Source: an uncultured Spirochaeta sp. (GTDB lineage: Bacteria > Spirochaetota > Spirochaetia > DTKZ01). From it: 33,467 bases of DNA. Position 1 is the first letter of the stretch; every line of letters begins with the position of its first letter. Positions 9,585 through 31,002 of the stretch are shown here, in pieces. Location: positions 1-33,467 of the forward strand of contig CAKZQO010000048.1 of assembly GCA_937140905.1 (NCBI GenBank). Direction: 5' to 3'. The translations under genes and the position numbers were made by a program. The notes under the pieces are model-generated. The model was not told the DNA's origin and did no database searches. It saw only the letters and a list, made by a program, of their open reading frames with translations.

Positions 9585-10646
9585 TTAAAGAAGGACCCGC
9601 TTCTTGGCGAGGTACAAAGCCCCCTGTACGGCCAGCATAGAAATTTCCATGGGATCGGAAATTGAGCGAATCGTCGCAGGTATCCGCATCTTTTCTTTTA
9701 AATAATACTCGAAGATTTCACAGCGGGCTCGGGGCCCGACGAGAAAGATCCGTTCCCCATAGGGAAAATCGAACTTTGGAAACAGCCCAAGAGCGCGTAG
9801 ATCATCCACCGCCAGAGCGGCCTCGACGAACTTTCTCCTTTGTTGCCAGGTAGTACGGAGTAGAACATCCATGAATCGGGGCATTACGAACCCTCGTAGG
9901 AGGCCCGCCTCTCGAACAATTTCATACGCCAGATCGGCGATCACGGGATCAAAGGGAGAGGATTCTTCTGGTTTCGCCAAAGGGGATACAGATTCGGGTA
10001 GCCCAGAAGCGGATTCCGTAGGCACCACTGACTTCCCAATAAAGGTCTCTTTCATTAAGGCTTCGAACACTTGACCCGAGAGGGTAGTAACACTTCCCAG
10101 AATCCGGTCTCGCCGATCGATGGGAATACACTTGGTATGGGAAGAAAGGTTGATCACCGTGGTGGGGATCCCGGATCCATACAGCTGTAGAAGCCCAGCC
10201 ACCTGCGTCTCTTCGCCTCGCATGAAGTCCAGACGAGCAAGCTCAGCCAAATCGTTTCGTTCGGGGTGATAGGGGTTCTTGATTCCCCGGATAAGGTATA
10301 GGGGCAACTCAGAATCAAAGCTTTCCTCCCCATCCACCCGGGTTATGGAACCCGCTAGGTCTTCCATGGAAACAGGAGCGAACAGGTGGGGGAGTTCGAT
10401 CAGGCCCAACTCGCTGGTAATCATACCAGAGGAAATAACCAATCGAATCTGCGATTTGGAAAGACCCGCTTCGTATAGCACTTCCTCCGTGAGGGTTTTC
10501 AACTCCTTCTTCAAGAACGCGTTGGAACCCCGAATCGCCGTGTCCTTAACTCCCGCTTTCCTGCTCTTCGAGAGAAGGATTTCCCCTTTGAGGTTTACCA
10601 GGTACACCCTGGAATTGGTGGTGCCGCAATCAATGGTCAGAATCAC
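9585..10646 (-). CDS. dgoK: 2-dehydro-3-deoxygalactonokinase family protein
   Basis: This 353-residue protein matches the DgoK family: ILTIDCGTTNSRVYLV is the N-terminal phosphate/ATP motif of the actin-like kinase fold, and DFMRGEETQVAGLL is the DgoK hallmark. GLLRGFVMPRF and LVGPRARCEIFEYYLK follow. DgoK enzymes phosphorylate 2-keto-3-deoxygalactonate at C6 in the cytoplasm before aldol cleavage. Its ATG overlaps the stop of the preceding DapA-family gene by four bases. It is the last gene of a four-gene operon that also encodes an RpiR regulator. The family assignment is strong; the exact sugar acid is inferred. Confidence 0.88.
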   Translation of the reverse strand: MILTIDCGTTNSRVYLVNLKGEILLSKSRKAGVKDTAIRGSNAFLKKELKTLTEEVLYEAGLSKSQIRLVISSGMITSELGLIELPHLFAPVSMEDLAGSITRVDGEESFDSELPLYLIRGIKNPYHPERNDLAELARLDFMRGEETQVAGLLQLYGSGIPTTVINLSSHTKCIPIDRRDRILGSVTTLSGQVFEALMKETFIGKSVVPTESASGLPESVSPLAKPEESSPFDPVIADLAYEIVREAGLLRGFVMPRFMDVLLRTTWQQRRKFVEAALAVDDLRALGLFPKFDFPYGERIFLVGPRARCEIFEYYLKEKMRIPATIRSISDPMEISMLAVQGALYLAKKRVLL

Positions 10647-16578: not shown

Positions 16579-17730
16579 ATGGCAAAAGGTAAGCCACTTG
16601 ATACAGAAGACTTTTTGTCTGAGCAGCTGGGGGAGGGAAATCGGTCATGGATGAATCGTTCGATCGATCTCCTTTCCTATGGCGAACCTCTGGTGGGGTT
16701 CTATCCGATAGAAGCTGTACACCAGTTGGGCAATAGAGCAAGGAAGAAGAACCCTCGATCTTTTACCAATAACCGCACGGGAAAGGTCGATACCAATGCC
16801 GAGCCTGATCACCTCTCGGCAAAGGCAAACGAAATGGTACCTTTGAAGACGCCCTGGATGGCTACGTGGGGTGGGGATACTTCCAACGTGGTGCTGGCCG
16901 CTTCTAAACTCGGACTCTCCTGCGCGTACCTTTCCCGGGTGGGAGAAGATCCCTTCGGTGAGGGATTCTTTTCCCTCTGGGAATCTTCCGGTATCCAAAC
17001 CCGCTTGGTGCAGAAGGATCCCCATCACCCCACAGGGCTCTATTTCGTTTCCTTCCGTGAAGGGAAACATATCCTCACCTATTACCGGAAAGATTCCGCT
17101 GCTACCCATATCGATCCTAATCAGTTTGATCCCGCCGTTCTCAACTCGGTGCGGGTCCTGCACCTGAGCGGCATAAGCCTAGCGATCAGCCCCAGAGCGC
17201 GTGAGTTCGGCGTGTTCCTCATGCAAGAAGCCCGGAAACGCGGCACATTGGTATCCTTTGACACCAACTTCAGGCCTGCCCTTTGGGGAAAGGAAGAAGC
17301 GCGACAGGTCCTCGAACAAATCATTCCCGCTTACGTGCATGTCCTTGCCACCACCGACGAAGAGATGGAACTTTTGGGATGGGGACAACGGCCTGAGGCA
17401 ATGGCCCAGTTGTTGCGCGGTCCCGCATATTACCTAGTAAAACAGGGGAGTAAGGGAGCCTATGTACGAAGCTCGCAGGAAGAACTCTTTTTCCCATCTT
17501 TCCAAGTGCCGGTCGTAGACACCGTGGGAGCAGGGGATGCCTTCGATGCGGGTTTTCTACGGGCTCTCCTTCATTCGGACCCTTTGAGGGACGCTGCCCG
17601 ATACGCGTCTGCCGTGGCCGCCCTGGTATGCACTGGACAGGGACCATTGGAAAAACAACCTACCCATCGAGAAGTGGAAGCTTTCCTACGGAAGCAGAGT
17701 CAGTCTAGTTTTATCCGCCGGGCTAAATGA
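16579..17730 (+). CDS. PfkB-family sugar kinase, probably 2-keto-3-deoxygluconate kinase-like
   Basis: The 383-residue frame encodes a ribokinase/PfkB fold: YGEPLVGF near the start, GGDTSNVVLAASKLG (substrate loop), FDTNFRPALW as in KDG kinases, and TVGAGDAFDAGF with the catalytic Asp. A hydrophilic stretch of roughly 30 extra residues (about 47-85) separates the first strand from the GGDTSN loop. The true start may be the ATG at 16651 (MNRSIDLLSYGEP), which agrees better with the family; a GGAGG lies 15 bases before it, while the ATG at 16579 has only a weak GGCAGG. It sits 12 bases after tctA and likely phosphorylates a sugar acid imported by it. The 3' end overlaps the convergent SbcC-like gene by 31 bases. 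Confidence 0.85.
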   Translation: MAKGKPLDTEDFLSEQLGEGNRSWMNRSIDLLSYGEPLVGFYPIEAVHQLGNRARKKNPRSFTNNRTGKVDTNAEPDHLSAKANEMVPLKTPWMATWGGDTSNVVLAASKLGLSCAYLSRVGEDPFGEGFFSLWESSGIQTRLVQKDPHHPTGLYFVSFREGKHILTYYRKDSAATHIDPNQFDPAVLNSVRVLHLSGISLAISPRAREFGVFLMQEARKRGTLVSFDTNFRPALWGKEEARQVLEQIIPAYVHVLATTDEEMELLGWGQRPEAMAQLLRGPAYYLVKQGSKGAYVRSSQEELFFPSFQVPVVDTVGAGDAFDAGFLRALLHSDPLRDAARYASAVAALVCTGQGPLEKQPTHREVEAFLRKQSQSSFIRRAK

Positions 17731-27982: not shown

Positions 27983-29572
27983 ATGACATTTCCACAACTC
28001 CTTAACGGCAAACCAAAAGTACGACGCGATCTTCAAGATCGCGCCGAAATCCGGAAGCGTTTGGCCGCCGCCAATCAGAAACTGGTAGTTGTCGACGATG
28101 ATCCCACCGGCACCCAGACGGTCCACGGGATCCGGGTATACATGGATTGGTCGGTAGACACCCTCTTTCGGGCCCTGTCCCGCCCGGATGAGGTGTTCTA
28201 CGTCTCCACTAACTCGCGGGCCTTGCCCCCCCCGGAAATGCGAGCCTTGACCCAACAGCTTGGTGCTAACCTCCGGACCGCTACCCGGAAACTGGCCGGA
28301 GAAACGGGGAACAAGATGCCTCTCCTGTTAGCCTCCCGGAGCGACAGTACCCTTCGGGGACATTTTCCCGAAGAGATCGACGCCCTCTTAGAAGGATACG
28401 GGTTACCGGCCGATGGGGTAATCATCGCTCCCGCGCTCTTTGAAGCGGGAAGGTACACGATCGACGATATCCACTGGGTAGACCTTGGGGACCGGATCGT
28501 GCCGGCGGCCGAGACGGAGTTCGCCAAGGATCCCGCCTTCGGCTACACGAAAAGCGACCTAAAGGAATGGGTGGAGGAAAAAACCAAAGGCCGCTGGAAG
28601 GCGAATGAGGTCCTTTCCCTTTCCCTCGAAACCCTCCGCGTGGGAGGGGTGCCTGGGGCCCTGGAAGTGTTTTTGCGCGCTGAAGGGGGTGTTCCCATCG
28701 TGGTAAACGCCGCCTGCTACGAGGATTTGGAGACCGCCGTCCTTGCCCTGATACAGGCGGAAGAACGGGGCAAACGGTTCGCTTACCGCTCCGCCGCCTG
28801 TTTCGTGAAAGTGCGGGGAGGGTTCGTGGACCGGCCCCTTTTGACAGCCGCTGAACTAGGCATCGGCCAAACGCCGGGCGTAGCCACTTTTACTACTGGC
28901 GCGGTCGCAAACCTTCCCAGCGGCGCGGCCGATGCGGGCCACGGCGCAACCTCAAACTTCCCTTCCTACGCCGCGGCCACTTCAACTCAGGGGGCTACGC
29001 CGTCGATCATCGAAGAATCGCGGAACCGGAGCGAAAGAGGCGCAACCGCGGGTCTCGTGGTGGTAGGTTCCTACGTGGGAAAAACGGGGCGACAACTGGA
29101 CCAGCTCCTAAAGGCCGTTCCCTGCGAAGCGTTGGAACTACAGGTAGGCCGAATCGCGGAGGGGGATAGCGCGGGAGCTGAGGAAGTGAAAAGGGTTGCC
29201 CAAGCCGCGGACAGGGCTCTTGAAGCGGGCCGTACCGCCGTGGTGTACACTTCCCGGAAGGTCCGGCAATTGGAAGGGAAAGAATTCCTCGAGTTCGGCA
29301 ACCGGGTCATGATGGCCCTCTGCTCTGTGGTGCAGTTGGTGGGGAAGCGTCCCTCCTTCGTGGTAGCCAAGGGGGGAATCACCAGCATCGAGATCGCCCG
29401 CACGGGCATGGGGGTTAAGGAGGCCTATGTGCCCGGGCAGATCGCTAAGGGGGTACCCCTCTGGCAGTTAGGGCCAGAGTCTAAATGGCCCGGGATCCCC
29501 TACGTGGTGTTTCCCGGAAACGTGGGGGACGACTTTACCTTAGCCGAGGTAGTGCGAGCGTTAGGGGGGTAG
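27983..29572 (+). CDS. otnK: Four-carbon acid sugar kinase family protein (OtnK/DUF1537)
   Basis: The 529-residue protein has the two-domain OtnK architecture. The N-domain starts LVVVDDDPTGTQTVHG (residues 34-49), then SRSDSTLRGHFPEE and IIAPALFEAGRYT. The C-terminal nucleotide domain has VVAKGGITS (from 461), VPGQIAKGVPLW and FPGNVGDDFTL. Such kinases phosphorylate 3-keto or other acid sugars after oxidation by an LtnD-type dehydrogenase, encoded next downstream. Between the domains (about residues 296-354) is an alanine/glycine/threonine-rich insertion coded by GC-rich repeats like those in the following gap. It probably forms a flexible linker. The family is certain; D-erythronate, L-threonate or glycerate-type ligands are inferred. 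Confidence 0.9.
   Translation: MTFPQLLNGKPKVRRDLQDRAEIRKRLAAANQKLVVVDDDPTGTQTVHGIRVYMDWSVDTLFRALSRPDEVFYVSTNSRALPPPEMRALTQQLGANLRTATRKLAGETGNKMPLLLASRSDSTLRGHFPEEIDALLEGYGLPADGVIIAPALFEAGRYTIDDIHWVDLGDRIVPAAETEFAKDPAFGYTKSDLKEWVEEKTKGRWKANEVLSLSLETLRVGGVPGALEVFLRAEGGVPIVVNAACYEDLETAVLALIQAEERGKRFAYRSAACFVKVRGGFVDRPLLTAAELGIGQTPGVATFTTGAVANLPSGAADAGHGATSNFPSYAAATSTQGATPSIIEESRNRSERGATAGLVVVGSYVGKTGRQLDQLLKAVPCEALELQVGRIAEGDSAGAEEVKRVAQAADRALEAGRTAVVYTSRKVRQLEGKEFLEFGNRVMMALCSVVQLVGKRPSFVVAKGGITSIEIARTGMGVKEAYVPGQIAKGVPLWQLGPESKWPGIPYVVFPGNVGDDFTLAEVVRALGG
28868..29044 (+). repeat. GC-rich repeat-like insertion inside the otnK-like gene
   Basis: This stretch is built of short irregular units starting GGCGC(G/A) (for example GGCGCGGTCGCAAACC and GGCGCGGCCGATGCGGGCC), about 21-27 bases long. 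It encodes a low-complexity segment rich in Ala, Gly, Thr and Ser between the two kinase domains. It resembles the repeats at 29573-29900 and 30082-30255 in composition and in its CC-loop-GG hairpins. Confidence 0.55.
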
Positions 29573-29900
29573 ACCCCCTTGTGACAATAGGTGGTCGCGC
29601 GACCCCCAAAAGAGGCGGTCTTTCTTGGGTACAGACACCCAGCGATGGGAGCCATAAAGCGGCGATAGCCCTAAAAGGGGCAGCCGTCTTGAAAAGCTGC
29701 GCGAGCCCTGCGGCGCGACCCCCCAGAGTTGCGGCTACCCCAAGATGGGGATCATAAAGCGGCTCGAGATCCGCAGGCAGCCGCTCAAAGAGGCTGCCAA
29801 TCCTCGATGGGGACCATAAAGTAACGGCAGGCCCACGAAGTGGCGATGCTCCTCGGATGAGGTGGCGGCGCCCATTAGACCGCGGTGGCGCCCTTATCTG
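29573..29900. repeat. Array of short hairpin-forming repeats in the otnK-ltnD gap
   Basis: The 356-base gap 29573-29928 has no credible gene. It holds roughly nine degenerate units of about 30 bases, each with a CCC-loop-GGG hairpin and often ending ATAAAG. GATGGG(G)AnCATAAAG occurs at 29644, 29744 and 29806; the first two copies match at 17 of 20 positions and lie exactly 100 bases apart. A perfect stem GGCAGCC/GGCTGCC is at 29776-29798. A G6/C5 hairpin spans the otnK stop codon. It is not CRISPR-like: units are neither identical nor separated by unique spacers of fixed size. The last 28 bases before ltnD are AT-rich and carry its AAAGGAAAA ribosome site. Confidence 0.7.
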
Positions 29901-29928
29901 AAAAAGAAACAGAGAAAGGAAAAAGACC

Positions 29929-31002
29929 ATGAGCACACAGATCGGTTTCATCGGACTCGGCGTCATGGGAGGACCCATGGCGCGAAACCTCGCCTCAAAG
30001 TTCCCCGGAATCCGGGTGTTCGACACTGACCCTGTCAAAATCCAACGCTTGGTAAAAGGGGCCGAAGAGTTCGCCCAACGGCAAGGCCCTGTTTCCGGCG
30101 CCCGAGGATCCGCAACCTTAGAAGCCGGTACCCCAGGGCCCACCTCCCGGGATGTGGCCTCCCGGCAACCAACTCTCAATGAAGCCACCCCTGGTGGAGC
30201 CTCTACACGGGAAGCCACCACAGGTGAGGCCGCGACACGGAAAGCCGCCGTCCTCCCCGCCTCGTCGGCGGCCGAAATCGGCTCCTCCTGCGATATCGTG
30301 ATCCTTTCCCTCCCCACATCGGAGGTGGTGAAGACCGTGGTTCTCGGCGAGGGCGGGTTGGGGAGGGTCATGAAAAAAGGCTCCATCCTCATCGATACCA
30401 GCACCACCGAAGTGGGGATCACGAAAGAAATCGCTACCGCTTTATCCCAACAGGGAATCCACTTCCTCGACGCTCCGGTAAGCGGAGGGGAAAAGGCGGC
30501 CATTGAAGCCACCCTTTCCTTCATGGTTGGGGGGGACCCTACGGTATTCGAAACCTGTAAACCCTACCTGTCAGCCATGGGTGCTTCGGTAGTTCGTCTC
30601 GGGGAAGCTGGGATGGGGCAGGTAGCGAAGTGCGTGAACCAGATGATCGTGGGAGCCACCTTTGCCGTGATCGCCGAGTCCTTTGCCCTCGGCGCCAAGG
30701 CGGGCTTAGACCCCAAAGTGCTCTACGACGCCATCAAGGGAGGCTGGGCCGGCTCGAAGCTCCTCGACGTGGCGGCACGGGACATGTTCTCCCGGGAGTT
30801 CAAGCCGGGCGGCACGGTGGACATCCACTGGAAGGACTTAGGCTACGCCCTGTCGGTGGCCAAGGCTGAAGACGTTCCCACTCCCCTCACCGCCCTCACC
30901 CACGAGATCTTCAAAGCCGCCCGCGCCGCGGGGGACGGTAAGCGCTCCCAGCCCGCCGTGGTACGGCTATGGGAACGGTTGTTGGGGATAGAGGTGAAAT
31001 AA
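29929..31002 (+). CDS. NAD-binding 3-hydroxyacid dehydrogenase (LtnD/GarR type) with repeat insertion
   Basis: The 357-residue protein belongs to the beta-hydroxyacid dehydrogenase family: IGFIGLGVMGGPMARNL (nucleotide loop), DAPVSGG (substrate loop, 181-187) and GQVAKCVNQ with catalytic Lys234, then a DLGYAL-containing C-domain. It probably oxidises an aldonate such as threonate or erythronate before phosphorylation by the preceding OtnK-like kinase; tartronate semialdehyde reductase is the alternative. Family members are usually about 300 residues. The excess is an insertion at about residues 52-109 in the loop after the second strand, containing four 10-residue tandem units (65-104; EATPGGASTR and EATTGEAATR are the clearest). 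The fold motifs on both sides are intact, so the enzyme is probably active. Confidence 0.9.
   Translation: MSTQIGFIGLGVMGGPMARNLASKFPGIRVFDTDPVKIQRLVKGAEEFAQRQGPVSGARGSATLEAGTPGPTSRDVASRQPTLNEATPGGASTREATTGEAATRKAAVLPASSAAEIGSSCDIVILSLPTSEVVKTVVLGEGGLGRVMKKGSILIDTSTTEVGITKEIATALSQQGIHFLDAPVSGGEKAAIEATLSFMVGGDPTVFETCKPYLSAMGASVVRLGEAGMGQVAKCVNQMIVGATFAVIAESFALGAKAGLDPKVLYDAIKGGWAGSKLLDVAARDMFSREFKPGGTVDIHWKDLGYALSVAKAEDVPTPLTALTHEIFKAARAAGDGKRSQPAVVRLWERLLGIEVK
30082..30255 (+). repeat. In-frame 30-base tandem repeats within the dehydrogenase gene
   Basis: Units of 30 bases at 30121, 30151, 30181 and 30211 encode 10-residue repeats; the units at 30181 and 30211 agree at 24 of 30 bases. Each contains a small CCACC/GGTG hairpin. 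The 30-base period keeps the reading frame. Composition and hairpin style match the repeats in the upstream gap and in the otnK-like gene. Confidence 0.75.

Follow-up and report, generated by a model that had tools for sequence, protein, structure and literature searches.

The otnK-ltnD locus and its lengthened genes

The window, the whole stretch of 33,467 nt analysed here, is contig 48 of a spirochaete genome (G000) assembled in 324 contigs totalling 3.57 Mb. It carries an otnK-like gene (27983..29572, forward strand) encoding a DUF1537 kinase of 529 aa with an SBD_N and an NBD_C domain (Pfam PF07005 at residues 34-276 and PF17042 at residues 358-519). This is followed by an ltnD-like gene (29929..31002, forward strand), which encodes a 357 aa dehydrogenase of the 3-hydroxyisobutyrate / tartronate-semialdehyde reductase family (Pfam PF03446 and PF14833). 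NCBIfam models for 2-hydroxy-3-oxopropionate reductase match LtnD with scores under the model cut-offs, and the closest solved structure by sequence is 1vpd. Orthologues were compared with those of five relatives, G002, G003, G004, G006 and G008, each species being represented by one genome. G002 (Spirochaetes bacterium SKW186) and G003 (uncultured Spirochaetales R1_Bin_Bin_54_1) belong to the same genus as the window, while G004 (Spirochaetales Gx481_bin132) and G006 (Kf353_bin16) belong to a sister genus; all four are spirochaete MAGs. The adjacency of otnK and ltnD is kept in all five relatives, and the congeners in which the inserts described below are missing or shorter are 80-87% identical and have the same gene order.

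Alignment with the congeners delimits an in-frame insert of 58 residues in LtnD (residues 47-104; 30067..30240, forward strand). The G002 orthologue is without these residues and is 83% identical across the remainder, and the G003 orthologue is without 44 of the 58, being 10 residues longer than G002 at the insert site. Measured from the VFDTD to the EIGSSC motif, the segment spans 86 aa in the window, 38 aa in G003 and 28 aa in G002, with a median of 24 aa among 45 homologues. A decayed in-frame tandem repeat was detected here with TRF at 30181..30246 (forward strand), having a 30-nt unit, 2.2 copies at 80% and a 15-nt sub-period. Its units lie head to tail and both periods are multiples of 3 nt, as in a coding minisatellite. 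It was equalled in none of 300 codon shuffles, confirming the 30-base unit that had been proposed from a first inspection of this DNA (hereafter the earlier note).

In OtnK the interdomain linker is expanded. The alignment with congeners places this segment, which is rich in A, T, S and G, at about residues 294-356 (28862..29050, forward strand), between the two Pfam domains. The linker segment measures 71 aa in the window, 42 aa in G003 and 19 aa in G002, and has a median of 15 aa in 80 homologues. Within the OtnK linker no internal repeat of the coding-minisatellite kind was found beyond the level of codon shuffles (P = 0.51).

AlphaFold2 models of LtnD and OtnK have mean pLDDT values of 89.3 and 87.4, respectively, and segments with pLDDT below 50 are confined to the inserts (residues 65-98 of LtnD and 297-340 of OtnK). 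According to the secondary structure of the LtnD model, the insert begins where helix 35-51 ends and stops ahead of strand 108-110. Both inserts are thus predicted to be disordered, with the folds on either side predicted to be intact. The earlier note had held that both genes carry in-frame inserts and that these look tolerated. The first point is upheld by the alignments with congeners, in which the frame is kept, and the second agrees with the intact frame, the high-confidence flanking folds and the predicted disorder.

The intergenic array and the question of a common family

The gap between the two genes is 356 nt long (29573..29928), while in congeners the two genes are separated by tens of bases at most. 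The distance between the otnK stop codon and the GFIGLG motif of LtnD is 371 nt in the window, 48 nt in G002, 19 nt in G003, 64 nt in G006, 11 nt in G008 and 488 nt in G004. When 152 neighbouring gene pairs conserved in G000 and G002 were compared, this spacer proved the most lengthened. It holds a hairpin-rich array of three diverged units, all on the forward strand and each ending in GATGGG(G)AnCATAAAG. Unit 1 (29611..29665) has the 3' end GATGGGAGCCATAAAGCGGC; unit 2 (29711..29765) contains the hairpin CCCCAAGATGGGG, then ATCATAAAGCGGC; and unit 3 (29773..29827) contains a 7-bp hairpin, GGCAGCC...GGCTGCC, then GATGGGGACCATAAAG. The self-similarity score of the gap is 17 (shuffle maximum 13), and hairpins with a stem of at least 4 bp number 13 where 6.6 are expected, a count reached in 0 of 200 shuffles. 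The long gap with repeat units noticed earlier is confirmed.

Such an array could be a selected RNA element, in which alternating hairpins and the repeated single-stranded AnCATAAAG site tune the stability or translation of the ltnD message, the protein inserts being separate and neutral. The GATGGG and CATAAAG cores are kept in all three copies while their surroundings have diverged, hairpins are in excess, the entire gap has a moderate folding advantage over shuffles (z -1.84 and -2.40), and no promoter-like or terminator-like site was detected in the gap. However, the units taken singly show no such advantage (z +0.55 to -1.5), Rfam has no match in the window and only chance-level matches to the gap, the array is missing from the congeners, and no second locus that would make up a regulon was found in the own genome or three congeners. 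We regard this reading as unlikely, if the most credible of the alternatives. The one match resembling a terminator is located within otnK, is at chance level and was rejected as a candidate.

The earlier note had further assigned the OtnK linker, the gap and the LtnD insert to one family of CC-loop-GG units. Its observation of inserts in both genes, a long gap and repeat units stands, but the common family does not. In pairwise local alignments on both strands the three regions resemble each other at shuffle level (P 0.12-0.57); for the OtnK and LtnD inserts the DNA similarity gave P values of 0.12 and 0.175, and the encoded peptides are visibly different. Among the three regions the hairpin excess is limited to the gap. 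Hairpin counts in the OtnK linker and the LtnD insert are at shuffle level, with folding z values of -0.16 and -1.35, respectively. A family shared across the three regions was ruled out by the local alignments against shuffles.

Copies at other loci were likewise ruled out, by three types of search. BLAST queries with the gap, the LtnD insert and the OtnK insert returned only self-matches in the own genome and three congeners. A covariance model built from the three gap units recovered just those three in the same genomes, and a 16-nt core pattern with up to two mismatches is as frequent elsewhere in the own genome as its reversed control. This lack of further copies in the genome is the result that the earlier note had itself named as speaking against its reading. 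The reading as a single hairpin family fails because the three regions are mutually unlike and without further copies.

Palindromic elements that insert into genes have been described in Rickettsia (RPE; PMC10969869), and a single mobile element of this type might have inserted in frame in both genes and repeatedly in the gap. As with RPE, extra in-frame segments occur here in otherwise intact metabolic enzymes, and the two genes, ltnD and otnK, are adjacent and unrelated; the gap does contain hairpins. Unlike RPE, these sequences are not dispersed in many copies in the own genome and three congeners, the LtnD and OtnK inserts are not palindromic or rich in hairpins, and no common peptide is encoded by the two inserts. 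With the regions unrelated to each other and no additional copies in the genome or genus, a mobile element invading the genes, as had been suggested, is most improbable.

The sister-genus genome G004 contains a dispersed palindrome family, a species-specific proliferation of perfect hairpins, and its otnK-ltnD gap is occupied by strong hairpins of this perfect kind with loops of 3-4 nt. The motif AATTGCC(N3-6)GGCAATT occurs 477 times in G004, 4-11 times in its congeners and not at all in the genus of the window. Among the candidates scored in G004, at least 22 are near-full copies of an 84-bp double-hairpin unit, with 89-100% identity, and one of these lies inside the otnK-ltnD gap (G004:C142:1264-1343). 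Of 39 other genomes searched with this unit, 38 gave no match and one gave a single 25-base match. In the loci inspected the G004 hairpins are intergenic (L065:1089-1572, reverse strand; L297:1-760; L050:121-494; JAISAF010000026.1 corresponds to L069/L065). That a real dispersed family has placed one copy in the equivalent gap lends some plausibility to a mobile element at the window locus, yet the AATTGCC palindrome has zero copies in the window's own genome. The G004 double-hairpin family is unrelated to the gap array of the window, but it shows that the otnK-ltnD gap takes unrelated insertions in different genera.

Comparable expansions in the cluster and in other genomes

The same cluster contains a PfkB-type sugar kinase gene (16579-17730) with a 28-residue in-frame insert relative to G002 near the N-terminus (16723..16806, forward strand), in which no clear internal repeat was found (P = 0.04). 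Relative to G002, the G003 PfkB-type kinase has a different insert, of 32 aa, at the corresponding place. A dgoK-like kinase gene (9585..10646, reverse strand) has orthologues with inserts in the congeners: that of G003 carries a long low-complexity in-frame insert with a 66-nt tandem repeat (2 copies, 75%; L180:12659-12919), and that of G002 an insert of 21 aa. Outside the spirochaetes, the OtnK linker of the actinomycete Nonomuraea jiangxiensis is also 71 aa long and contains a 15-nt tandem repeat of PAGPV type in 6.5 copies (L138:4875-4978); it is an independent parallel to the window linker. From the repeats in G003 dgoK and Nonomuraea OtnK it follows that such loops grow independently, and by tandem duplication where their origin is still legible.

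In a sample of 181 orthologue pairs shared by G000 and G002 (30 in the window and 151 from elsewhere), inserts of 15 aa or more were counted whichever species carried them. Such inserts were found in 5/30 genes of the window and 5/151 others (Fisher P = 0.012), a clustering that is suggestive only because the test was post hoc and one window case, at the contig end, is doubtful. A genome-wide plague of inserts was rejected, since only five of at least 15 aa occur in G000 among the 151 pairs outside the window, two of these being a structured-looking segment of 95 aa and a heptad-repeat expansion of 56 aa. Tandem repeats with a period of at least 9 nt are scarce in both genomes, at about 1.4 and 0.5 per 100 kb. 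Elsewhere in G000, a 63-nt period repeat in 5.4 copies encodes FKDEMK heptads in a protein 56 aa longer than in G002 (G000:C208, L248:8873-9211), probably a length expansion of a coiled coil. Another spacer measures 332 nt where that of G002 measures 12 nt (G000:C168, L189:11417-11749). It was rejected as a second copy of the gap, being AT-rich and unlike it, and is possibly a decayed gene.

The disordered inserts might be adaptive, for example by acting as tethers or interaction segments to hold together the sugar-acid kinases and the dehydrogenase of this catabolic cluster. In favour of this, OtnK, LtnD, the PfkB-type kinase and DgoK all vary, while no inserts of comparable size occur in the transporters and aldolases that the cluster also encodes. 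Against it, the sequence, length and presence of the inserts differ within one genus, they have no evident common motif, and the enrichment rests on the post hoc test. We give this explanation very little credence.

Origin of the expansions and their meaning

The observations are probably best explained by three independent, lineage-specific local expansions that lie side by side and arose through tolerated duplication or slippage, an ordinary process. Coding minisatellites are usually explained by replication slippage. In LtnD, the surface loop leading from the second helix to the third strand of the Rossmann fold would have been lengthened as units of 15 and 30 nt were duplicated in tandem and in frame, most likely through replication slippage followed by decay of the repeats; even between the two congeners the length of this loop differs by some 10 residues. 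The OtnK linker perhaps grew by the same route, its repeats being too decayed, or absent, to tell. Separately, a short array of diverged hairpin units would have arisen between the genes, at this single spot, and purifying selection would have preserved the reading frame and the folds. We infer both slippage as the mechanism and the neutrality of the inserts. The slippage amplification put forward in the earlier note fits the tandem repeat of the LtnD insert but is unproven for the OtnK linker, because no repeat there rises above codon shuffles.

Intragenic tandem repeats and low-complexity regions are known from prokaryotic proteins (PMC3899988, PMC6821194). Like such coding minisatellites, LtnD has in-frame head-to-tail units in multiples of 3 nt within a disordered low-complexity loop, and related species differ in whether the insert is present and in how long it is. 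Unlike them, the window OtnK linker has no detectable repeat, whereas LtnD, G003 dgoK and Nonomuraea OtnK each have one. The gap, as an extragenic array of short hairpins, resembles the REP extragenic palindromes and BIMEs (for REP, see PMC3733652), but it lies at a single locus instead of being dispersed, and its units have diverged.

The origin of the gap array is not fully accounted for by simple slippage. In addition, the occurrence of three neighbouring expansions and a fourth in the PfkB-type kinase is a notable coincidence, which counts against the preferred explanation of independent local expansions. It is very unlikely that the sugar-acid catabolic cluster is, in this genus, a hotspot of repeated lengthening of disordered loops in kinases and a dehydrogenase of different species, and that its gap array is a functional RNA element of alternating hairpins and AnCATAAAG sites, with both kinds of insertion under selection.

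With independent local expansion as the preferred explanation, the claim that a new palindrome invades spirochaete genes, tempting as it was, falls, and ordinary growth of loops by duplication takes its place. The dispersed double-hairpin repeat family of G004 may merit separate attention. Because expansion of this OtnK linker, and of genes in this cluster, has occurred independently in different species, these enzymes offer a handy natural case of tolerated disordered insertions.
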